Source: Acetobacter orleanensis (lineage in GTDB: Bacteria; Pseudomonadota; Alphaproteobacteria; Acetobacterales; Acetobacteraceae). Taken from it: 64,000 bases of DNA. The stretch is taken from positions 1 to 64,000 of the forward strand of contig NZ_LHZV01000057.1 in the NCBI RefSeq assembly GCF_001581005.1, given 5' to 3'. Below the pieces are notes generated by a model. The model did not search any database. It was not told the DNA's origin and saw only the letters and a program-made list of their open reading frames with translations. This document shows, piece after piece, positions 19,045 to 29,498 of the stretch (the stretch's first letter is position 1; each line of letters opens with the position of its first letter). The position numbers were made by a program, and so were the translations under genes.

Positions 19045-19080
19045 GCAAAACAGCCATCACGACAGTAGGTCTATTGCATT

Positions 19081-19109
19081 GATTGTATGGACAATAATCA
19101 CATACAATC
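19081..19109. promoter_or_regulatory. Inverted repeat upstream of the MocR regulator (site 1)
   Basis: GATTGTATG (19081-19089) and CATACAATC (19101-19109) form a perfect 9-bp inverted repeat with an 11-base spacer, 27 bases before the regulator start. The TTGTATG/CATACAA core recurs before the nitrilase operon at 20753-20784. It is probably an autoregulatory operator. Confidence 0.7.
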
Positions 19110-19136
19110 TGCCAACATATATGGAGACCGCTTCGC

Positions 19137-20540
19137 ATGGCTGATTATCCCTATCTCGCACACTGGAAAGAAGACATCAGCCGGAGTCCGAACGCTATTT
19201 ATCTGACGCTTGCCGATGCTCTGGCCCTTTCCATTCGCAAAGGCGATTTACGGGATGGGGACAAACTGCCTCCCCAACGCGTGATTGCGGAGTACCTCGG
19301 CACCAACCTCACGACCGTCACCCGCGCGTTAACCGAAGCCCGGCGACGCGGCCTTATCGATGCCACCGTCGGACGAGGCACCTTTGTCCGTGTCGGTGCC
19401 GGGGAAAGCCACTGGCGCCATACTGGTCCTGCCGTGGTTGATCTGACCATGAACTTGCCCCCAATCCCGCAGGATCCGCCACTCCAACGCATGATCCAAA
19501 GCGATATTACCGCCATCCTCAAGCAGCAGGATCTGAACAGCCTGATGTCCTACCGCGTAACCGGTGGAACTCTTGAGGAACGCCAGTTTGGCGCAAAATG
19601 GATTGCCCCTGTTATTGGCCAGCGCCGCACGGATGAAATCCTGATAGCCCCCGGTGCCCAGAGTGCTCTGGCGGCAATCGTCAGCACACATACCCAGCCC
19701 GGTGACGTCATCGTCACCGACCGTATCGCCTATCCCGGCATAAGGACCATAGCCGCACAGTTTGGCCTTATCCTTGTGGGTGTAGACAGTGACATGGAAG
19801 GCATGATGCCGGAGGAACTTGACCGGGTGTGCGCCGAACATCACCCCCGGCTGCTTTACTGCATCCCGACCATTCATAATCCCACCACGGCCACAATGTC
19901 CCTGCAACGCCGCAAGGATATTCTGAAAGTCGCCCAACGCCATCACCTGCATATTGCTGAAGACGACCCCTACAGCTTGCTCATGGATACTCCGCTGCCA
20001 GCTCTGGCGGCTCTTGATCATAGCCGTGTCAGCTATATTGCCACACTTGCCAAAACACTCAGCCCCGGTTTGCGTACAGCCTATGTCGCGCTCCCCAGCA
20101 CAGACATGACGCGACGGGTGACCGCAGCCATCCGCGCCATTGCATTGACCAATGCCGGCCTGCTCAGCGCGCTGACAGTCCGCTGGATGCAGACGGAACA
20201 GGCGCACGCCATACTCCACGCCATTCAAAAAGAGCTTCGGCTCCGGCAGTCAGTCGCCCGCAGGATTCTGGGCGAAGAGCACTGTATGAACCCGGACGGC
20301 CCCCATGTATGGCTCAAACTGCCGAACTGGTGGGGAAGTGCCGATTTTGTCGCCTATGCCCGCAGGCGCGGTCTGGCTCTTGTTCCCAGCACAGTGTTCA
20401 CCATCAGTGGCGAACCGCCACAGCGCGCGCGGATTGCGCTGGGGAGCGCACCAGACGCGGCCAGTCTGGAAAAATCCCTGCATGGCGTGCTGTCGGTTCT
20501 CCAGCATAAACGGTCTCCCGGGTTTACTGATATTGTGTGA
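19137..20540 (+). CDS. MocR-type regulator (GntR HTH fused to class I aminotransferase domain)
   Basis: Residues about 20-85 form a GntR winged helix (PPQRVIAEYLGTNLTTVTRA), and residues 100-460 a PLP-binding aminotransferase fold. PLP contacts are visible: Asn248 (IHNPT), Asp276/277 (AEDDPY) and the Schiff-base Lys306 (ATLAKTLSPG). MocR proteins use the PLP domain to sense an amino compound. It stands directly upstream of, and parallel to, the nitrilase operon. Near-identical inverted repeats lie before both, so it is very likely that operon's regulator. This differs from the regulators I know of for Nit1C clusters. Confidence 0.92.
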   Translation: MADYPYLAHWKEDISRSPNAIYLTLADALALSIRKGDLRDGDKLPPQRVIAEYLGTNLTTVTRALTEARRRGLIDATVGRGTFVRVGAGESHWRHTGPAVVDLTMNLPPIPQDPPLQRMIQSDITAILKQQDLNSLMSYRVTGGTLEERQFGAKWIAPVIGQRRTDEILIAPGAQSALAAIVSTHTQPGDVIVTDRIAYPGIRTIAAQFGLILVGVDSDMEGMMPEELDRVCAEHHPRLLYCIPTIHNPTTATMSLQRRKDILKVAQRHHLHIAEDDPYSLLMDTPLPALAALDHSRVSYIATLAKTLSPGLRTAYVALPSTDMTRRVTAAIRAIALTNAGLLSALTVRWMQTEQAHAILHAIQKELRLRQSVARRILGEEHCMNPDGPHVWLKLPNWWGSADFVAYARRRGLALVPSTVFTISGEPPQRARIALGSAPDAASLEKSLHGVLSVLQHKRSPGFTDIV

Positions 20541-20876
20541 CCTGCTTGTGCATCGGGCATCAGAGACTCCCGCCGGGGCCGTCTCCTGAAATTCTGGATT
20601 TGGAAACAAGGAATGACCGCACTCACAAACGCGTGAGAATAATACCCTTGTAAAACAAAGCTTTAATGAGGCTACAACCGATTGCATGGTTGCGTGGCAT
20701 GATTAATCTGGCTTTGTACCCATGAAATTAGCTTTTATCGCATTTTTTGTTGATTTTGTATGGAGACCATTATCCATACAAAATTTTGAAACGCCCGCCT
20801 CTCGTGTCACATCTCTCCCGGTAACGCGGTCACTCCCGACCTTCCGCCGGAGACCGCAGCACACGGGAGAGATATC
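20541..20876. other. Leader region of the nitrilase operon
   Basis: There is no gene here. The first 200 bases are unremarkable; the last 130 are AT-rich and contain the 32-bp palindrome described separately. The distance from that palindrome to the first operon gene is 92 bases, leaving room for a 5' untranslated leader with GGGAGA before the start. Confidence 0.55.
20753..20784. promoter_or_regulatory. 32-bp palindrome upstream of the nitrilase operon (site 2)
   Basis: ATTTTGTATGGA (20753-20764) and TCCATACAAAAT (20773-20784) are perfect 12-bp inverted repeats with an 8-base spacer. It shares the TTGTATG/CATACAA core with site 1 before the MocR gene; the core spacing is 12 bases here and 11 there. 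It probably overlaps the operon promoter. Confidence 0.72.
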
Positions 20877-21359
20877 ATGCCAACAATTGAACACGCTCCA
20901 CACAAAGATGGTGATTGCTTCGTCAATTATGAAAACAAGGTTTTCGAGGACGTTAAAGCCAACCCCGGCGAAAAAGCCCTCATCACCTTCCATACCGTTG
21001 CCAATGAAGGGTCCGTTGGGTTCGTAAACCTGCTTCAGGCAACACGCCTTATCCGCAAAGGGTTTGAAACATCTGTATTGCTGTATGGTCCGGGTGTCAC
21101 CCTTGGTGTGCAGCGCGGTTTTCCCCGCCTAGGTGATGAAGCCTTTCCGGGCCACATGAACTGCAACAAACAGATTGCAAAAATTCTTGAAGAGGGCGGA
21201 AAAGTTTATGCCTGCCGCTTCGCGCTTCAGGCTTTGTACGGATATGGCGAGCAAAACCTGATCCCCGGCATTACGCCCATTAATCCGCAGGACGTGCTCG
21301 ACATTATCCTGCTTGCCCGACGCGACAACGCCTTCATCCTCAATACATGGACTCTCTAA
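20877..21359 (+). CDS. MSMEG_0572/Sll0783-family nitrogen starvation protein (Nit1C cluster, NitB-like)
   Basis: This is the first gene of the Nit1C cluster. The 160-residue protein matches the Sll0783 family: [19 protein letters not shown] at the start, [19 protein letters not shown], then [15 protein letters not shown] and the C-terminal [15 protein letters not shown]. In Synechocystis the family member sll0783 is nitrogen-regulated and its loss affects polyhydroxybutyrate accumulation. The fold resembles DsrE-like proteins, but its biochemical role is not established. The next gene starts 23 bases downstream. Confidence 0.9.
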
Positions 21360-21382
21360 GGCCCTAGGGAGGACCATCAGCC

Positions 21383-22366
21383 ATGTCCCGTATCGTTCGC
21401 GCCGCAGCCATCCAGATCAGCCCTGTCCTTGGTGACGATGGTCTGGGGACTGCCCGGAAAGTCTGTCAGACCATCCGTAATGCCGCTGAAAAAGGCGTTA
21501 ACCTGATGGTCTTTCCTGAAACCTTTGTGCCCTACTACCCCTATTTCTCATTCATTCAGCCGGCATTCCGCATGGGTGCCGAGCATCTGGAACTCTACGA
21601 ACGCGCCGTTATCATTCCCGGACCGGTTACAGACATGGTGGCCGAAGCGGCCCGTCAGACCGGCACAGTCGTCGTGCTAGGCGTGAATGAAAGGGATTTT
21701 GGCACCCTCTACAACACGCAGATCATCTTTGATGCAACAGGTGAAATCTTGCTCAAACGCCGTAAGATTACCCCCACCTATCATGAGCGCATGATTTGGG
21801 GACAAGGGGATGGCGCGGGCCTGAAGGTTGTTGACAGCGCCGCAGGACGCATCGGGGCGCTGGCTTGCTGGGAGCATTACAACCCCCTCGCCCGCTACGC
21901 GCTGATGACGCAGCATGAGGACATCCACTGCGCACAGTTTCCCGGCTCTCTGGTCGGCCAGATTTTTGCCGACCAGATGGAAGTGACACTTCGACACCAT
22001 GCTCTGGAATCCGGCTGTTTTGTCGTGAACGCCACCGGCTGGCTGACGGAAGAGCAGATCAAGGACATCTCCGGTGATCCGGCACTGGAAGGACCACTAC
22101 GGGGAGGCTGCTTCACGGCCATTGTCTCTCCTGAAGGCAAGCTGCTCGCACCGCCCCTGACTGAAGGGGAAGGCATGGTGATCGCGGATCTCGACTTCGC
22201 CCTGATCACCAAGCGCAAGCGCATGATGGATTCCGTCGGGCACTACGCACGCCCCGAACTGCTCAGCCTGCTTCAGGACCGACACCCCGCCCGGACCGTT
22301 CATTACGCCAGAGAGCCGGAACAGGAAGTCCCGCCGGCCCTCTCCCACAATGAGGTTGCGCCATGA
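21383..22366 (+). CDS. nitC: Nit6803/Nit1C-family nitrilase
   Basis: Nitrilases hydrolyse a nitrile to the carboxylate and ammonia. The catalytic triad is complete: Glu46 ([12 protein letters not shown]), Lys128 ([12 protein letters not shown]) and Cys162 ([10 protein letters not shown]). Length (327) and the WGQGDG and [14 protein letters not shown] motifs fit the Nit1C branch. In Pseudomonas fluorescens NCIMB 11764 the orthologous cluster is required for growth on cyanide as nitrogen source. The physiological nitrile in this organism is unknown. A good AGGGAGGA ribosome site precedes the ATG, and the stop overlaps the radical SAM start (ATGA). Confidence 0.95.
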
Positions 22367-23472
22367 CCGTTCCGACACTCGGCTCGTTCTCCGGCCGCAA
22401 GCTCGTGACCGACCTGCAATCCTTCGGGTTGCAGATTGGCGAACAGACCGGAGGCATCGCCCGCAAAGGCGGGGCTGGTCCTTCAGATCACAAGACGATC
22501 ACCATCGCAGGGCAGACCGTTATGGTCCCGGTCTATACATCCGGCGCGCGCCGATCACCGTTTCAGGCAAGCCCACCTGACCAGAAAGGTGCCAGCACGC
22601 TGCTGCGAGACGGCCACCCCCTCGGCACGATCCATTTCCCGGCGGCGCCACGCTTCTACGGCCTGACAACAGCAGATGGTATTCCCTACTGGAAAATAGC
22701 CCTGCTGCACGGACGGGACACGCTGGCCACGACCGTATATCAAACCTGCATTCGTTATGCTGACCGACGCACCTCCTGCCAGTTCTGCGCCATCGGCCAG
22801 TCTCTGGAGGCGGATCGGACAATCGCCCACAAGACACCCGCGCAACTGGCTGAAGTTGCGAAAGCCGCTGTAGAACTGGACGGCGTGCGTGACATGGTCT
22901 TGACCACCGGCACCCCTAACATGGTGGACCGGGGTGCCGCCGTGCTGGCTGCCTCTGCCCGTGCCATCAGGGCGGCTGTTGACCTCCCGCTTCAGGTCCA
23001 GTGTGAACCACCGCGTGACCATGCATGGTTCCAGCGCCTGCGCGATGCTGGAGCGGACAGTCTGGGCATGCATCTTGAAGCCGCCACGCAGAGCGTGCGC
23101 GAAAAAATCATGCCCGGTAAAGCCACTGTCAGCGTCGATCGTTACATGGAGGCGTTTGCGTCCGCCGTGCCACTCTTCGGGCGCGGGCAGGTCAACACCT
23201 ACATTCTGGCCGGTCTGGGAGACAGTGCCGAGGACATTCTGCTTCTGGCCGAACGCCTTATTGCACTTGGGGTCTATCCCTTCGTGGTCCCATTTGTGCC
23301 CATCTCCGGCACACCGCTTGAAAATTATGCACCGCCTTCTGCTGATTTCATGAAATCGGTTCTGGCGCCTCTTGGACGAATGCTACGGGAGGCGAACATG
23401 AAATCCACAGACATCCGGGCAGGATGTGGCCGTTGCGGCGCCTGTTCCTCACTGTCGGCCTACGAACAATGA
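22363..23472 (+). CDS. MSMEG_0568-family radical SAM protein (NitD-like)
   Basis: This radical SAM enzyme belongs to the Nit1C cluster. Its iron-sulfur cysteines are Cys129, Cys139 and Cys142 ([14 protein letters not shown]), a CX9CX2C spacing rather than the classic CX3CX2C. A TIM-barrel core follows, with [21 protein letters not shown] and [16 protein letters not shown]. The C-terminus has extra cysteines ([10 protein letters not shown]) that could bind an auxiliary cluster. The reaction is not known. ATGA overlaps at both ends show tight coupling with the nitrilase and the GNAT. Confidence 0.93.
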
Positions 23473-24032
23473 GCACGACACTTGAAGGCGTGGAAGACCG
23501 ACACTTCATCCCAACGGAATATGTCGTGCGCCTTGCCCGCACACCGTGGGAACGCGCCGGGTACCATGCGCTACGCCGTGAAATCTTTTGCACCGAGCAG
23601 AAGATTTTTGCAGATGATGATCGGGATGCTATCGACGCAACCGCTATTCCCATCATTGCCGCCTGCTGCATGGCGGGTATGCCGGACCGGATTGTGGGGG
23701 CAGTGCGCATCCATAACGCTGAACCCGGTCTCTGGCGCGGTTCCCGTCTGGCAGTCCATGCGGACCATCGCAAGTTGGGGCGGATCGGGGCAGAGCTTAT
23801 CCGCATGGCGGTCTGCACGGCGCACGGTCTTGGAGCGACCCGATTTCTGGCACAAGTGCAGGAACAGAACGTGCTGTTCTTCCGCCGCCTGCACTGGAAA
23901 AGCCTTGGGACCAGTTTCCTGCACGGGTTGCCGCACCACGACATGCAAGCTGATCTGTCACGCTATCCGGCCCACGGACAGGATCAGACATGGCTACTGC
24001 GCCCGCAACCACGCGCCCGACAGGTGGCATAA
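23469..24032 (+). CDS. MSMEG_0567/Sll0786-family N-acetyltransferase (NitE-like)
   Basis: This is a GNAT-fold protein of 187 residues. The acetyl-CoA region is GSRLAVHADHRKLGRIGAELIRMAV, followed by FLAQVQEQNVLFFRRLHW, which ends the fold. N-terminal ALRREIFCTEQKIFADDD resembles the hemolysin-type acyltransferase start. Its substrate is unknown; within the cluster it presumably modifies an amine intermediate. The ATG at 23469 overlaps the radical SAM stop and is preferred over 23424. The stop shares one base with the next start (TAATG). Confidence 0.9.
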   Translation: MSTTLEGVEDRHFIPTEYVVRLARTPWERAGYHALRREIFCTEQKIFADDDRDAIDATAIPIIAACCMAGMPDRIVGAVRIHNAEPGLWRGSRLAVHADHRKLGRIGAELIRMAVCTAHGLGATRFLAQVQEQNVLFFRRLHWKSLGTSFLHGLPHHDMQADLSRYPAHGQDQTWLLRPQPRARQVA

Positions 24033-25000
24033 TGGCACGTGATCTGGCGCACCTGCTCCGCACCCTCCGCAATAGCTGCGCTCTTGCATCCAAGCAGGAT
24101 ATTGCAAAAGTTTCTTCAATTCTAGGAGCTGATGCAAAAGCCATTCGGCTTGGCGATGACTGCGCCGCGATCCCGGATGGTGAGGGTTATCTCCTGCTGG
24201 CCAGCGAGGGGTTTCAGGACAGTTTTGTCCAGTCCATGCCGTGGTTTGCCGGCTACTGCGGCGTCATGGTCAATATCAGCGATATTGCGGCCATGGGCGG
24301 TCGTCCTGTTGCGGTGGTGAATGCGCTCTGGAGCGACACTTCCGACTCAGCCGCCGCCATCCTGCGCGGCTTACAGGACGGCGCACGCACCTATGGCGTG
24401 CCGGTTGTGGGTGGCCATACTAACCTGCGCAGTCCGCACACCGCATTATCTGCCGCCATTCTTGGCCGCGCCCGTCATCTACTGACCAGCTTCGACGCCC
24501 GACCAGATGAGGTTCTGATTGCCGCCATCGACCTGAGAGGCCGCTGGCATGACCCTCACCCCTTCTGGGATGCCAGTTCCGCACTCTGCGGCACACACGG
24601 CGCAGAACGCCTGCAAGGCGACATCGCACTGCTACCCGGCATTGCTGAAGATGGCCTGAGCCGCGCCGCCAAAGACATCAGCATGGCCGGACTGCTGGGC
24701 ACAGCCCTCATGCTTGCCGAATGTTCGGGCGTGGGGATGACCCTCACGCTTGACGCCATTCCGCGCCCCACGGACGCCCCCATGGAGCGCTGGCTATCTG
24801 CGTTCCCCAGCTATGGTTATCTGCTGACAGCCCGCCCCGAAGATGCGGCAACGATCATGACCCGGTTTCACAGCCGGGACATTGCCGCGGCTGTTATTGG
24901 CCAATGCAACAACTCACGCCGACTGGACATCACTTGGGCTGATGAGACAGAGACCTTCTGGGATCTTACACGGACACCGCTCATGGGATTTGCGCCATGA
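24032..25000 (+). CDS. Sll0787-family AIR synthase-like protein (NitF-like)
   Basis: This 322-residue member of the PurM/SelD/ThiL superfamily has the metal-ATP motif RLGDDCAAIPDGEGYLLLASEG near residue 40 and MVNISDIAAMGGRPVAVVNAL near residue 90. The C-terminal domain (GIAEDGLSRAAKDISMAGLLGT) matches the AIR synthase C half. Members phosphorylate or activate a carbonyl or carboxylate with ATP; in the Nit1C cluster the substrate is unknown. It is not the housekeeping PurM. The start at 24032 overlaps the preceding stop by one base, and the stop overlaps the glycosyltransferase start. Confidence 0.9.
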   Translation: MARDLAHLLRTLRNSCALASKQDIAKVSSILGADAKAIRLGDDCAAIPDGEGYLLLASEGFQDSFVQSMPWFAGYCGVMVNISDIAAMGGRPVAVVNALWSDTSDSAAAILRGLQDGARTYGVPVVGGHTNLRSPHTALSAAILGRARHLLTSFDARPDEVLIAAIDLRGRWHDPHPFWDASSALCGTHGAERLQGDIALLPGIAEDGLSRAAKDISMAGLLGTALMLAECSGVGMTLTLDAIPRPTDAPMERWLSAFPSYGYLLTARPEDAATIMTRFHSRDIAAAVIGQCNNSRRLDITWADETETFWDLTRTPLMGFAP

Positions 25001-26169
25001 GCCTGTCCATCGGTATTCTGACCCATTCCACCAATCCACGCGGTGGCGTTGTGCATGGCATGGCGCTGGCAGAAGCCCTATGCGAGGCTGGGCATCATGC
25101 GACCCTGATCGCCCCGGACGTGGAAGGGAGCGGCTTTTTCCGCACACCCCTCTGCATAACCCACTCTATCCCTGCCGCGCGCGAGACCGACCTGCCAACA
25201 TTGGTGGAACGTCGCATTGGTGAAATCAGGGACGCCGTGCGCAGCCTGCATTTTGACGTTCTCCACGCGCAGGATCCCATCAGCGCCAATGCTCTGGCTG
25301 ATCTGATGGATGAAGGCCGGATATCGGGCTTTGCCCGTACGGTTCATCATCTCGATCCCCTGACCCATCCCGTTCTTGCTGCCCGGCAGGAACGCGGCTT
25401 CAAGGCCGCGACCGAACTGTTTACCGTCAGCACCCTGTGGGCAGACATCCTGCGCAACACCCATGGGTGCCATGCCCCCGTTGTGGGCAATGGGGTCGAT
25501 CCCGTGCGTTTTTCACCTGTTCCGCACGGGCGGGATGCCACGCTCCGGGCACGGTATCATCTACCTGCCAGCCGGCGATTGATCCTATCTGTTGGCGGGG
25601 TCGAGCAGCGCAAAAATACCCTGAGCCTGCTAGAAAGTTTTCTGAGCCTGCACCGTGAGCAGATAGATGTTCATCTGGTCATAATCGGTGGCGCCTCGCT
25701 GCTGGATCATTCTGCCTATCGCACCCGGTTCGACGCCTGTCTGCGTGAACGCGGTGCCAGCGATCATGTCACCGTAACCGGACCGGTCGTGGATGAGGAT
25801 ATGCCTGCCTTCTACCGACAGGCGGACGTGCTGGCCTATCCATCCCTCAGCGAAGGGTTCGGCCTGTGTCCACTGGAAGCTCTGGCCTGCGGCACACCCG
25901 TCATCGTGCCAGAAATCGCGCCATTTACAGAACATCTTGAGGAGCCGGACGCTCTGTGGTGCCACCCTGACCGACCAGACACTCTGTTACGGACTTTGCG
26001 GCACGCCCTAAACGTCAAAACCCGTGACCGTTTCCAGAACAGTGGCCCGGCGACAGCCCGCCGTTTCGACTGGCGCAACGTCGCTAGCCGTCACCTTACT
26101 GCCTATCGACGCCTCGCGGCCCTGCCGCGTGCCAGTTCTCCTCCCTCAGGAGCTCTTAACCATGCCTGA
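24997..26169 (+). CDS. MSMEG_0565-family GT4 glycosyltransferase
   Basis: This GT-B fold glycosyltransferase has the N-terminal substrate loop ILTHSTNPRGGVVHGMALAE and the donor-binding domain with LILSVGGVEQRKNT and the E-x7-E type motif SEGFGLCPLEALACGTPVIV. It probably transfers a sugar from a nucleotide donor in the cytoplasm. Its presence suggests the cluster makes or handles a glycosylated compound, which simple cyanide hydrolysis would not need. It overlaps the upstream stop as ATGA and the next gene by 8 bases. Confidence 0.92.
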   Translation: MSLSIGILTHSTNPRGGVVHGMALAEALCEAGHHATLIAPDVEGSGFFRTPLCITHSIPAARETDLPTLVERRIGEIRDAVRSLHFDVLHAQDPISANALADLMDEGRISGFARTVHHLDPLTHPVLAARQERGFKAATELFTVSTLWADILRNTHGCHAPVVGNGVDPVRFSPVPHGRDATLRARYHLPASRRLILSVGGVEQRKNTLSLLESFLSLHREQIDVHLVIIGGASLLDHSAYRTRFDACLRERGASDHVTVTGPVVDEDMPAFYRQADVLAYPSLSEGFGLCPLEALACGTPVIVPEIAPFTEHLEEPDALWCHPDRPDTLLRTLRHALNVKTRDRFQNSGPATARRFDWRNVASRHLTAYRRLAALPRASSPPSGALNHA

Positions 26170-26449
26170 AATGACTTTTCGTGTGCGCTGGCCCGATGGG
26201 GCAGAAACGGAATGCTACTCTCCATCTCTGGTCATTCAGGACCATTTTACGCCCGGCATGACGTATCTGGTCCCGGAGTTTCTGAAAAAGGCTGATACCG
26301 CACTGAACGAAGCCAGTGAGCGGGTTCGCTCACGTTACGGTTTCCCTTGTAGCCGTGCCCTTGGGCAGCTCCAGACCATTCGACAGACCTGCGCACAGTT
26401 CAAAAACAGTCAGGACGCGCAAATACGTGTTCTGTCCTTCACTCTCTGA
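26162..26449 (+). CDS. MSMEG_0570-family nitrogen starvation response protein (NitG-like)
   Basis: The small 95-residue protein begins MPEMTFRVRWPDGAETECYS and continues VIQDHFTPGMTYLVPEFLKK, the typical pattern of this cluster-specific family. It contains two cysteines, one in ETECYS and one near the C-terminus. Function is unknown. The ATG at 26162 has CAGGAG upstream; a longer in-frame start at 26024 lies deep inside the glycosyltransferase gene and is rejected. The next gene begins 10 bases after its stop. Confidence 0.9.
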   Translation: MPEMTFRVRWPDGAETECYSPSLVIQDHFTPGMTYLVPEFLKKADTALNEASERVRSRYGFPCSRALGQLQTIRQTCAQFKNSQDAQIRVLSFTL

Positions 26450-26459
26450 AACGGATCTT

Positions 26460-27710
26460 ATGATGACACAGAATGAGAAAAACATCCCCGTCGTTATTGT
26501 AGGCGGCGGACAGGCAGGCCTCTCCATGAGCTGGTATCTCTGCAATGAGCACGTGGAGCACATCATTTTTGAAGCCAGAACGGCCTGCCATTCTTGGGAA
26601 GATGAACGCTGGGACAATTTCTGTCTGGTTACACCGAACTGGCAGTGCGAACTGCCCGGTCACCCCTATAAAGGGAAAGACCCGCACGGCTTCATGATGA
26701 AGCAGGAAATCATCGATTATGTCCGGGGGTTTGTGAACTCATTTTCCCCTCCCCTACGTGAGCATATGGCTGTCACCTCCATCACACGGCATGAAGCCGG
26801 CGGATATCGCGTGGTGGCGGCCGATGAGGTCTGGCATGCACAGCATGTCGTGATTGCATCGGGTGCGTATCATGATGCTGTCATTCCGGGTTATGCCAGT
26901 GCTATTGATTCTGCTATTTTCCAGCTTCATTCACAGGATTACCGCAATGCATCCCAGCTTCCGGAAGGGGCTGTTCTGGTTGTTGGAAGCGGTCAGTCCG
27001 GTGCGCAGATTGTCGAGGACCTGTTCCTTGAAAAACGCAAGGTGCATCTCTGCGTCGGTTCTGCGCCGCGTGTTTCACGTTTTTACCGTGGCCGCGATAT
27101 TGTGGACTGGCTTGCAGATATGCGCTTCTATGACCTTACGGTGGACAACCACCCTCTGCGTGACGGCGCACGGGATAAGACCAATCACTATGTCACCGGC
27201 CGTAATGGCGGGCATGATCTTGACCTGCGCCTTTTTGCAAAGGACGGCGTAAGTCTGCACGGCACACTGGAGACAATCCGAGATGAGGTTGCGGACTTCA
27301 GGCCGGATCTGAAAATCAATCTTGATGATGCAGACAAGACCAACGCTGACATCAAAAAATCCATTGATGCCTATATCGCCCGCGAAGGCCTGAGTGCACC
27401 AACAGAAACGCCTTACGTGCCCGTCTGGGAACCCGATGGCAGCAACACTCCGCTTGATCTGAAAGCTGCGGGCATCACCTCGATTATCTGGTGCATTGGT
27501 TTTCGCCCGGATTATCACTGGATTGATGTGCCGGTCTTTAACGGAGCCAACAAGCCAATCTGGCATCGGGGCGTGACTGACGCGCCGGGCTTCTACTTTC
27601 TCGGCCTTCCGTGGCTGCACACATGGGGATCAGGACGGTTCTCTGGCGTCTCGCGCGATGCCGCGTGGCTGGCCAGTCAGATCACCGGAAAAGACGTTCC
27701 CGTAGCTTAA
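26460..27710 (+). CDS. MSMEG_0569-family flavin-dependent oxidoreductase (NitH-like)
   Basis: This FAD and NAD(P)H-dependent monooxygenase-like protein of 416 residues has the FAD Rossmann motif VVIVGGGQAGLSMSWYL at the N-terminus, a second dinucleotide motif VLVVGSGQSGAQIVEDL in the middle, and the closing region FLGLPWLHTWGSGRFSGV. It resembles flavin monooxygenases that oxidise heteroatoms. In Nit1C clusters it is usually the last conserved gene. It may oxidise an amine or nitrile intermediate, but this is inference. Start 26460 (or 26463) is chosen because the ORF before it overlaps the small upstream gene. Confidence 0.92.
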   Translation: MMTQNEKNIPVVIVGGGQAGLSMSWYLCNEHVEHIIFEARTACHSWEDERWDNFCLVTPNWQCELPGHPYKGKDPHGFMMKQEIIDYVRGFVNSFSPPLREHMAVTSITRHEAGGYRVVAADEVWHAQHVVIASGAYHDAVIPGYASAIDSAIFQLHSQDYRNASQLPEGAVLVVGSGQSGAQIVEDLFLEKRKVHLCVGSAPRVSRFYRGRDIVDWLADMRFYDLTVDNHPLRDGARDKTNHYVTGRNGGHDLDLRLFAKDGVSLHGTLETIRDEVADFRPDLKINLDDADKTNADIKKSIDAYIAREGLSAPTETPYVPVWEPDGSNTPLDLKAAGITSIIWCIGFRPDYHWIDVPVFNGANKPIWHRGVTDAPGFYFLGLPWLHTWGSGRFSGVSRDAAWLASQITGKDVPVA

Positions 27711-27725
27711 GGGGGAGAGTGCACA

Positions 27726-29498
27726 ATGCTTCCATGGACAACATACGACGCACTCCATAAGGCGGCCCTGAGCCAGCCAGACCAGTTCTGGCTGGACGCA
27801 GCACAACGCATCTCATGGAAGCAGACACCTGTTACCGCATGCCGGACACGCCCAGATGGCTGGCATGATTGGTTTCCCGGTGCCACGCTCAACACGTGCT
27901 TTAACGCTGTTGACCGGCATGTTGAAAATGGACGTGGCAAACAGGCCGCCCTGATCTGGCATTCCTGCGCAACGAAAGAAGAGCGAATTGTCACCTATCA
28001 GGACCTTCTCGACAGGGTCGCCGGATTTGCTGGTGGTCTGCGCGCTCTAGGGGTCAACAAGGGTGATCGGGTTCTGATCACCATGCCGACCATGATCGAA
28101 ACCGCCATAGCCATGCTGGCCTGTGCGCGGATCGGGGCTGTGCATGTCGTCGTTTTTGCCGGCTATGCAAGCCCGGAACTGGCCCGACGCATTGATGATG
28201 CAACCCCAAAAGTCGTTATTATCGCCAGTTGCAGCTTTCAGGGCCAGACGGTAATCCCATCCTTACCCATGCTGAATGACGCGCTCACCCTAGCCGCGCA
28301 CAAGCCACAGGCCTGTGTCATCGTGCAGCGCAAACCCTGCCCGGCGACACTTCTGCCAACGCGGGATCATGACTTCCATATGCTGGAACGGTCCACACCA
28401 GCAGAGCCTGTCGCGCTGCACTCCGAAGATCCGCTTTATATTCTCCATACATCCGGCACAACAGGTCAGGCAAAAGGCATCGTGCGAGACAATGGCGGCC
28501 ATGCCGTAGCACTCGCTCTGTCCATGGAACTGATCTATGGGTGCCACCCCGGAGACACGTTTTTCACAACATCGGACCTCGGCTGGGTCGTCGGCCATTC
28601 CTATGGGGTTTACGCCCCCCTGATCTGCGGCGGCACCAGCGTGATCGTGGAAGGTGGCGCATCTGCATCCGCCATCCGTGCGCTCTGCCATGAACATGCT
28701 GTAAAATGCCTGTTCACAACGCCAACACAGATGCGGCTTATGCGGCAGGAGAGTCGCCATCTCTCAGCAGCGTTGCTGCCTGCACTGGCCCGCATTTTCG
28801 TTGCCGGAGAATATGCGGACCCGACACTGCTGGACTGGGCGCGATCCTATTTCCGTAAACCTGTTGTGAATCACTGGTGGCAGACAGAAACAGGATGGAG
28901 CATCACGGCCCATTTCTTCGGCCTGCCGGAACATGCCCCCATTTCACTCATCAATGATATTGGACGGCCTGCACCGGGATTTCACCCCGCTATCATGCCT
29001 TCAGAACGCGGGGAATTGTGTGGCGAGATTGTTTTATCCCTGCCGTTACCGCCCGGTTGTCTTGCAGGGCTATGGAAGGATGGAGCTATCCGTGTTCCTT
29101 CTCTCTATCTTGATGAAACAGGCCAGTATTACCGTACGTTCGACGAAGGCATGATTGATGCGACACGCGCGGTTCATATGCTCGGCCGCTCCGATGACGT
29201 CATTAAGGTTGCAGGACGGCGGATTTCCGGTGTGCAGATCGAAAAGGTCATCGCAGCCCACTCAGATGTTCATGCCTGCGCCGTTGTCGCGATCCATGAT
29301 GACCTGCGCGGACAGCGCCCTGTGGCCTATGTCATCCCTATTTCCAAGATGCCGTGCAGACGCTTATCCGATGAGGTTATTGAACTTGTCCATAAAGTGC
29401 TTGGTCGGTGGGTTGGCCTGAAGGAAATCCGCTTCGTCTCTAACCTTCCCACGACCACATCTGGAAAAATCCAGCGGAAACGTCTTCTTGTTTCCTGA
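27726..29498 (+). CDS. AMP-forming acyl-CoA synthetase (acetyl/propionyl-CoA synthetase-like)
   Basis: This adenylate-forming enzyme activates a carboxylate to its CoA thioester. The P-loop is ILHTSGTTGQAKGIV, the A5-like region VVNHWWQTETGWS, the hinge LGRSDDVIKVAGRRISGVQIE and the C-terminal catalytic Lys in TTSGKIQRKRL. The 590-residue length and VNHWWQTETG wording match short-chain acyl-CoA synthetases such as PrpE. It lies 15 bases after the flavoprotein gene with GGGGGAGAG before its ATG, so it belongs to the same operon. A plausible role is to activate the acid released by the nitrilase. It is not among the core Nit1C genes known to me. Confidence 0.93.
   Translation: MLPWTTYDALHKAALSQPDQFWLDAAQRISWKQTPVTACRTRPDGWHDWFPGATLNTCFNAVDRHVENGRGKQAALIWHSCATKEERIVTYQDLLDRVAGFAGGLRALGVNKGDRVLITMPTMIETAIAMLACARIGAVHVVVFAGYASPELARRIDDATPKVVIIASCSFQGQTVIPSLPMLNDALTLAAHKPQACVIVQRKPCPATLLPTRDHDFHMLERSTPAEPVALHSEDPLYILHTSGTTGQAKGIVRDNGGHAVALALSMELIYGCHPGDTFFTTSDLGWVVGHSYGVYAPLICGGTSVIVEGGASASAIRALCHEHAVKCLFTTPTQMRLMRQESRHLSAALLPALARIFVAGEYADPTLLDWARSYFRKPVVNHWWQTETGWSITAHFFGLPEHAPISLINDIGRPAPGFHPAIMPSERGELCGEIVLSLPLPPGCLAGLWKDGAIRVPSLYLDETGQYYRTFDEGMIDATRAVHMLGRSDDVIKVAGRRISGVQIEKVIAAHSDVHACAVVAIHDDLRGQRPVAYVIPISKMPCRRLSDEVIELVHKVLGRWVGLKEIRFVSNLPTTTSGKIQRKRLLVS

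Follow-up and report, generated by a model that had tools for sequence, protein, structure and literature searches.

The 64,000-nt stretch of DNA analysed here (the window; contig NZ_LHZV01000057.1 of Acetobacter orleanensis, positions 1 to 64,000) includes a gene for a MocR-type transcription regulator, mocR, followed on the same strand by an operon that encodes a Nit1C nitrilase cluster. The word TTGTATG is found before mocR and before the Nit1C genes, and is kept in both places across dozens of acetic acid bacterial species. As judged from sequence comparison, MocR very likely reads it. The coding regions are as follows.

19137..20540, plus strand: MocR-type transcription regulator (467 aa) with a GntR winged helix and an aminotransferase-like domain; K306 is the presumed lysine for pyridoxal phosphate (PLP) and R432 the presumed carboxylate arginine
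20877..21359, plus strand: MSMEG_0572/Sll0783 family protein, first Nit1C gene (TIGR04044 over cut-off)
21383..22366, plus strand: Nit6803-type nitrilase (TIGR04048 over cut-off)
22363..23472, plus strand: MSMEG_0568-type radical SAM protein (TIGR04043 over cut-off)
23469..24032, plus strand: MSMEG_0567-type N-acetyltransferase (TIGR04045 over cut-off)
23990..25000, plus strand: sll0787-type AIR-synthase-like protein (TIGR04049 over cut-off)
24997..26169, plus strand: MSMEG_0565-type glycosyltransferase (TIGR04047 over cut-off)
26165..26449, plus strand: MSMEG_0570-type small protein (TIGR04042 over cut-off); start estimated, the mechanical open reading frame running from 26024 and the match from residue 48
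26316..27710, plus strand: MSMEG_0569-type flavin oxidoreductase (TIGR04046 over cut-off); true start probably at about 26480, the match running from residue 58

A Nit1C cluster encodes, in a single run, MSMEG_0572, Nit6803 nitrilase, radical SAM, GNAT, AIRS-like, MSMEG_0570 and flavin oxidoreductase proteins, the glycosyltransferase being optional. The cluster in the window is complete, with all eight families over the NCBIfam cut-offs and in order (20877-27710).

The regulator matches the GntR winged helix at its N-terminus (PF00392, residues 22-84, 49.3 bits against a cut-off of 27) and the fold-type-I-like aminotransferase I/II domain at its C-terminus (PF00155, residues 100-446, 60.6 bits against a cut-off of 19.7), as well as solved aminotransferase structures. 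Twenty homologues chosen by hand were aligned with it. The candidate PLP lysine, K306 in LAKTLSPG, is kept in all 19 homologues that cover it, and R432, which from general knowledge of the fold we take to be the arginine gripping the substrate carboxylate, in 20 of 20. Conservation of these two residues would favour an amino-acid-like effector. With both domains and the PLP lysine that define the MocR subfamily of GntR regulators, the protein is, on its sequence, a MocR-family PLP regulator, as proposed in an earlier note made from the DNA of the window alone. Its best NCBIfam match, to EhuR/EnuR (NF052286), lies below the cut-off (355.4 bits against 480) and the linked operon is Nit1C instead of ectoine catabolism genes; hence it was not assigned to that group.

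The same note had described two inverted repeats with a shared TTGTATG/CATACAA core, and both can be read directly in the sequence. One, upstream of mocR, is a perfect 9-bp repeat, GATTGTATG (19081-19089) and CATACAATC (19101-19109), with an 11-bp spacer. The other, in the gap before the first operon gene, is a perfect 12-bp repeat, ATTTTGTATGGA (20753-20764) and TCCATACAAAAT (20773-20784), with an 8-bp spacer, and its cores TTGTATG (20756-20762) and CATACAA (20775-20781) have 12 bp between them. The window contains exactly two copies of the pattern TTGTATG-N(5-20)-CATACAA, those at these two sites, as compared with a mean of 0.01 in shuffled sequences, none of 100 of which had two. A scan of the whole genome (G000, 3,004,894 bases) returned the same two sites and no others; two copies in 3.0 Mb set the pattern apart from a motif that occurs at many unrelated loci.

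Shorter or looser forms of the word were less informative. The bare 7-mer TTGTATG is not enriched (6 found, 4.87 expected) and was rejected as a marker, and the relaxed pattern TTGTA-N(14-17)-TACAA was found at 5 places, whereas its reversed form, used as a control, was found at 13. The full word alone is therefore special, and the case has to rest on comparison across genomes. A larger regulon was not supported by the relaxed pattern, nor by tandem TTGTATG words up to 30 bp apart, which occur at one place in the genome and at one per strand in the control.

The sites before the operon are these.

20682..20688, plus strand: box A, TTGCATG in the window, 74 bp upstream of box C
20704..20710, plus strand: place of box B, eroded in the window (3 mismatches), with a B-like TTGTACC at 20714-20720 instead
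20756..20762, plus strand: box C, TTGTATG, a possible -35 element, found by the shuffle test and cross-genome conservation
20775..20781, minus strand: box D, the inverted CATACAA, overlapping a possible -10 element TACAAA (20777-20782)

Conservation was assessed at 54 loci from 54 genomes (51 distinct intergenic sequences) in which the regulator is at least 84% identical to that of the window. TTGTA-N14-CATACAA precedes the operon at all 54, 46 times exactly and eight times with one mismatch, and the gap between the 7-mers C and D is exactly 12 in every case. Among 50 distinct sequences, mean column identity is 97% for box C and 99.7% for box D as compared with 47% between the arms and 42-66% in other stretches, though the figures for the two boxes are biased upwards, since the best C/D match served as the anchor of the alignment. 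ATTTTG downstream of box D is also conserved (90%). Farther upstream, box B is present as an exact TTGTATG 52-53 bp before C at 49 of the 54 loci, and box A lies 73-75 bp before C with at most one mismatch at 42. Thus, the conserved operon operator consists of three boxes in the same direction (A, B and C) and the inverted box D on the likely -10 element. The distances of 22 (A-B), 52 (B-C) and 74 bp (A-C) are near whole helical turns. The weakened box A and eroded box B of the window explain why the earlier note saw C and D alone.

Before mocR, the arrangement is different.

19074..19080, plus strand: TTGCATT, a degenerate box 9 bp upstream of box 1, with an ATTGC word at the same place in many orthologues
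19083..19089, plus strand: mocR promoter box 1, TTGTATG, from the sequence and comparison of orthologues
19101..19107, minus strand: CATACAA, the right arm of the inverted repeat before mocR, containing most of the predicted -10 element TACAAT (19103-19108)
19079..19108, plus strand: predicted sigma70-type mocR promoter TTGATT-N18-TACAAT, 9 of 12 matches; a weak prediction, with 3 promoter-like sites against 1.1 expected
19117..19123, plus strand: third mocR box, degenerate ATATATG in the window, 34 bp downstream of box 1; many orthologues have (A/T)TGTATG

An exact TTGTATG is present at -70 to -45 in 50 of the 54 orthologous mocR promoters. When the right arm was sought at these 50 loci, it was found exactly in one of the 54, the window itself, and with at most one mismatch in five. 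The mocR palindrome is thus private to the window genome among those examined, and its right arm overlaps the predicted -10 element. A box in the same direction 30-34 bp downstream of the left one is seen with at most two mismatches at 41 of the 50 loci and with at most one at 29, although twelve offsets were tried, so some of the weak matches are due to chance. The conserved mocR site, as far as sequence comparison allows, is the left box, probably within a direct repeat. Hence, of the MocR operator pair proposed earlier, the word shared by the two promoters holds up and the matched inverted repeats do not: a symmetric pair of operators was rejected, since only the repeat before the operon is conserved, the conserved pattern at mocR is probably a direct repeat, and the operon has two further direct boxes.

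The distribution of the operator was compared with that of the regulator. Some match to the MocR of the window was found in 50 of 61 genomes (that of the window and 60 relatives), and the first Nit1C protein is encoded in 52 of 397 genomes of the family Acetobacteraceae. In 45 of 46 further loci, taken from 45 of these 52 genomes and from genome G004, a MocR match of 37-93% identity lies beside Nit1C (at L076 only the end of MocR is visible, at a contig edge); the exception is L097. A species-level scan added the best 80 of 116 loci, 57 of them from Acetobacter, Komagataeibacter, Novacetimonas and Gluconacetobacter and 23 cyanobacterial. At the 51 of the 57 loci where MocR is at least 84% identical, the operon site is always present with at most one mismatch. 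At the other six the best match has 2-4 mismatches, as compared with 3-5 in the cyanobacterial background, where no match to the MocR of the window was found within the 353-4,000 bases upstream that were searched. Two of the six, from A. cibinongensis and A. indonesiensis (L136, L132), have a 56% MocR homologue in divergent orientation beside a first operon protein that is 97% identical; three, in Gluconacetobacter, have a 67% MocR; and one, in Gluconacetobacter aggeris, has no MocR match within 4 kb. Loci with a replaced or absent MocR have thus lost the C/D site, including those whose first operon protein is still 93-97% identical. The set of 57 largely repeats the species of the set of 54, so that the counts overlap rather than being independent; L030/L031 and L103/L104 come from the same two genomes, and L001 and L002 were left out as duplicates of the window's own genome.

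More distant regulators tend to keep TTGTATG-like boxes in other arrangements. Of 13 loci with a MocR of 43-67% identity, 10 have more boxes than shuffled sequences at the 0.05 level, and exact direct repeats 32 bp apart were found in two genomes with a 54-55% MocR, whereas the six loci with a 37-39% MocR have one box or none, which equals or comes close to the mean of the shuffles. The stretch of the recognition helix varies with the boxes, the six aligned homologues of 37-39% identity having FTTVAR and 0-1 box and those with L(T/A)T(V/I)TR (LTTVTR, LTTITR or LATVTR) having 2-6 each.

Some loci depart from the usual layout. G. aggeris (L097/L152) has neither a MocR match nor the C/D site, yet two exact TTGTATG words lie upstream of its operon. 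In genome G004, the contig with the Nit1C cluster also encodes an N-terminal piece of the usual MocR (89% identical). Two genomes of the window's genus, G034 and G028, each have two full MocR copies (90-93%), and G028 has a further copy in two pieces.

The type of promoter also differs among these loci. Of 16 loci with a MocR below 60% identity, 10 have an element resembling the sigma54 promoter TGGCAC-N5-TTGC, with at most two mismatches and the GG/GC core intact, that starts 52-102 bp upstream of the operon. None with an intact core was found in the 29 later loci with a MocR of at least 66% or in the 28 first loci, 5 of which have look-alikes with 1-2 mismatches that lack the core. In the window itself the best candidate has 3 mismatches and no GG/GC core, and a sigma54 promoter was thus rejected for its clade. 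A match to rpoN is absent from the genome of the window, and was found in 14 of 14 distant genomes and in 10 of 25 genomes searched of its genus; as rpoN is over the cut-off in 11 of 12 Gluconacetobacter genomes, the difference in promoters does not simply follow from loss of rpoN. No sigma54 activator was seen near nit1C in the 14 distant genomes (Sigma54_activat, E up to 0.001), several contigs being short, and the nearest match on the same contig is weak and 84 kb away (G309). In the genome of the window, estimated to be 99.99% complete, two strong sigma54-activator domains (E 7e-63 and 1e-53) lie about 3 kb apart on contig C8 (13261-17464); these are possibly NtrC/NtrX-like and working without sigma54. 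For the operon in the window, the implied -35 and -10 elements are only 15 bp apart, and the consensus scanner, which needs 16-18, does not call a promoter.

Downstream of box D is a leader of about 85 nt that is conserved in sequence and whose predicted fold can pair the ribosome-binding site. Its parts are listed here, SD denoting Shine-Dalgarno.

20789..20876, plus strand: 5' leader of the operon mRNA, predicted to be structured, from a putative transcription start
20799..20806, plus strand: first anti-SD strand CTCTCGTG, able to pair with CACGGGAG (20862-20869)
20811..20822, plus strand: second, competing anti-SD strand ATCTCTCCCGGT, the minimum-energy partner of the SD strand in the window genome
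20865..20871, plus strand: Shine-Dalgarno sequence GGGAGAG, the GGAGA core of which is invariant in 27 aligned leaders

A first alignment (A1) used 27 of 28 leaders, L025 being a near duplicate. A four-helix structure was drawn on it, in which 89.4% of cells pair, as compared with 34-45% when the structure is slid, and 11 cells are double-changed, though the structure was drawn after the alignment had been seen and the pair counts lean towards it. Depending on the measure, 0 to 23 of 500 shuffles score as high as the real alignment. In a second alignment (A2) of 44 leaders, from which L107 (start pattern unmatched), L032 (not placed), L094 (inner hairpins deleted) and identical leaders were left out, the outer stem alone is 96.1% paired, though with little covariation and with 82% pairing in one of the slid versions. 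The leaders fold with z-scores between -2.8 and -0.5, and a second anti-SD strand similar to that of the window is found also in L063 and L094. A search of 397 family genomes with a model of the leader (R1) gave matches in 29, once each and all directly before the first Nit1C gene; sharing of the leader with other genes was thus unsupported, albeit with strict filters that can lose weak matches. The model missed 23 of the 52 genomes encoding the first Nit1C protein, among them the 14 distant ones. Rfam had no match in the leaders of 8 loci up to E=3, and for 20540-20900 of the window no match in the leader and two sub-threshold matches outside it. A match to pntA sRNA at the operon palindrome, on the minus strand (19.5 bits, 54 required), and an IRES_EBNA match at 20540-20600 (12 bits, 100 required) were taken as chance. 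We consider the leader likely to be regulatory and possibly a true riboswitch.

In L094 and L095 the leader is without the inner hairpins, the anti-SD strands remain, and the operator is therefore found at -87, as compared with about -120 elsewhere; of these two loci, L094 matches Gluconacetobacter diazotrophicus (L154). At the other end of the operon, a propionate/acetate-CoA ligase-like gene (27726-29498; 532 bits, well under the family cut-off of 955) follows Nit1C after 15 bp on the same strand and may be an extra member.

The sites, their spacing and conservation, and their co-inheritance with this MocR are observed, and from them we infer how the system may work. A head-to-tail MocR dimer with PLP on K306 would bind boxes C and D, on the -35 and -10 elements of the operon promoter, and boxes A and B, 22 and 52 bp apart from their next boxes on the same face of the helix, would anchor MocR and in this way keep the promoter closed. 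An amino compound that the pathway produces or consumes would react with the PLP and alter the grip of the protein, allowing the operon to be transcribed. The direct boxes before mocR would set the level of MocR itself. The operon RNA would start just downstream of box D, and its folded leader could hide the ribosome-binding site, probably serving as a second layer of control. Repression at C/D, stabilised by A/B and relieved by a PLP-reactive amino compound, is favoured by analogy with EnuR and the MocR of the Pseudomonas nit4 cluster. Activation is a possible alternative, as the poor 15-bp spacer would suit a promoter that needs help. Taken together, the sequence evidence makes it probable that MocR reads (A)TTGTATG and controls its own gene and the Nit1C operon.

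Besides the unconserved right arm at mocR, several points weigh against this interpretation. Box C is TTGTAC rather than TTGTATG in most relatives, and the window itself has an eroded box B. The GGA abutting the downstream mocR box lies near the start codon and may be kept as a ribosome-binding site, and the invariant C-D gap could partly reflect promoter geometry. Three LATVTR homologues carry one-mismatch boxes alone, and box counts exceed those of shuffled sequences (no more than 0.05 of the shuffles reaching the observed count) in only 13 of 26 loci with a MocR of at least 84% identity, so that position and conservation, not the number of boxes, carry the case. For the leader, covariation is modest, and RNAalifold alone recovers the outer stem but not the drawn inner helices.

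The operon repeat might instead be nothing but a core sigma70 promoter, in which a TTGTAC or TTGTAT -35 element mirrors a TACAAT -10 element by chance and conservation reflects RNA polymerase. The resemblance of TACAAT to a -10 box, the conserved ATTTTG downstream and the invariant C-D spacing fit such a promoter. However, the 15-bp spacer does not, the word is found again well upstream, in boxes A and B, and before mocR, CATACAA is almost invariant including the CA ahead of the hexamer, and the site is gone where MocR has been swapped and the operon retained; this explanation is thus considered unlikely. Slightly less likely still is that the boxes are read by a different regulator, one that governs nitrogen or carbon use and mocR as well, with MocR as a neighbour without a role. 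Nit1C is indeed under other regulators elsewhere, such as the sigma54-dependent NitA in Pseudomonas, and L097, with no MocR nearby, keeps its exact words at -155 and -112, but two sites in a genome are unlike a global regulator, the site tracks the identity of MocR across 57 loci, and the recognition helix changes together with the type of box. That the repeats arose as palindromes by chance, or form a transcribed hairpin that regulates nothing, is very improbable given the shuffle expectation and conservation at 54 of 54 loci while the DNA between the arms drifts freely, even though the right arm at mocR is private to the window genome.

The family-wide comparison suggests that the type of promoter has changed beside the same operon and the same kind of regulator. 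A wider proposal is that Nit1C of acetic acid bacteria switched from a sigma54-type promoter to a MocR-operated sigma70 promoter and gained a new leader of about 85 nt, whose two mutually exclusive anti-SD strands would act as a metabolite- or condition-sensing translational switch; this is speculative and, taken as a whole, rather doubtful.

A PLP-dependent regulator tied to Nit1C by a conserved operator would offer a direct handle on the inducer of the pathway. Any compound that releases MocR from TTGTATG is probably a substrate or product of the pathway and, going by the family, probably an amino compound. The names of the Nit1C protein families among the NCBIfam matches refer to nitrogen starvation. 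The cluster is widespread and is needed for cyanide use in Pseudomonas. A report of a MocR-Nit1C link was not found among the open-licence PubMed Central matches listed, which is weak evidence of absence, nor was one of a nitrilase riboswitch or this leader among the matches listed; the open-licence PubMed Central literature likewise gave nothing on nitrilase, acetic acid bacteria and nitrogen starvation together.

Several known systems resemble the proposed one in part. The Pseudomonas NitA system has the same type of operon (nitBCDEFGH), activated by a sigma54-dependent regulator encoded in the opposite orientation (PMC11049912); in the window MocR takes the place of NitA, in a genome without an rpoN match. 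In Pseudomonas pseudoalcaligenes CECT5344, a MocR regulates a nitrilase-containing cluster negatively, repressing cio/nit4, for which PMC8567248 shows growth of mutants and cites the proteomics as unpublished; that cluster is Nit4 and not Nit1C, and the word 'operator' is absent from that paper. The ectoine catabolism regulator EnuR/EutR (EhuR) has the same half-site, ATTGT/ACAAT, and operators that overlap the -10 and -35 elements, with the published consensus ATTGTnnnnnnACAAT (PMC8739950). It differs in that the arms in the window are about one helical turn farther apart (ATTGT-N17/18-ACAAT as compared with N6), and in that the window system has other target genes and extra direct boxes. The regulons of MocR proteins such as GabR, PdxR and TauR combine boxes of both orientations, direct and inverted, separated by whole turns with small variations in spacing, as Suvorova and Rodionov set out in 2016 (PMC5320631). 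Their main text contains none of the words nitrilase, Acetobacter and Gluconacetobacter, and the supplementary tables may list this MocR. The conserved operon operator resembles the mixed, whole-turn type drawn as -> -> -> <- in a table of that paper, where it is assigned to 3 regulogs and 14 regulons. The system is thus a further example of a well-known kind of MocR switch, not a new principle.

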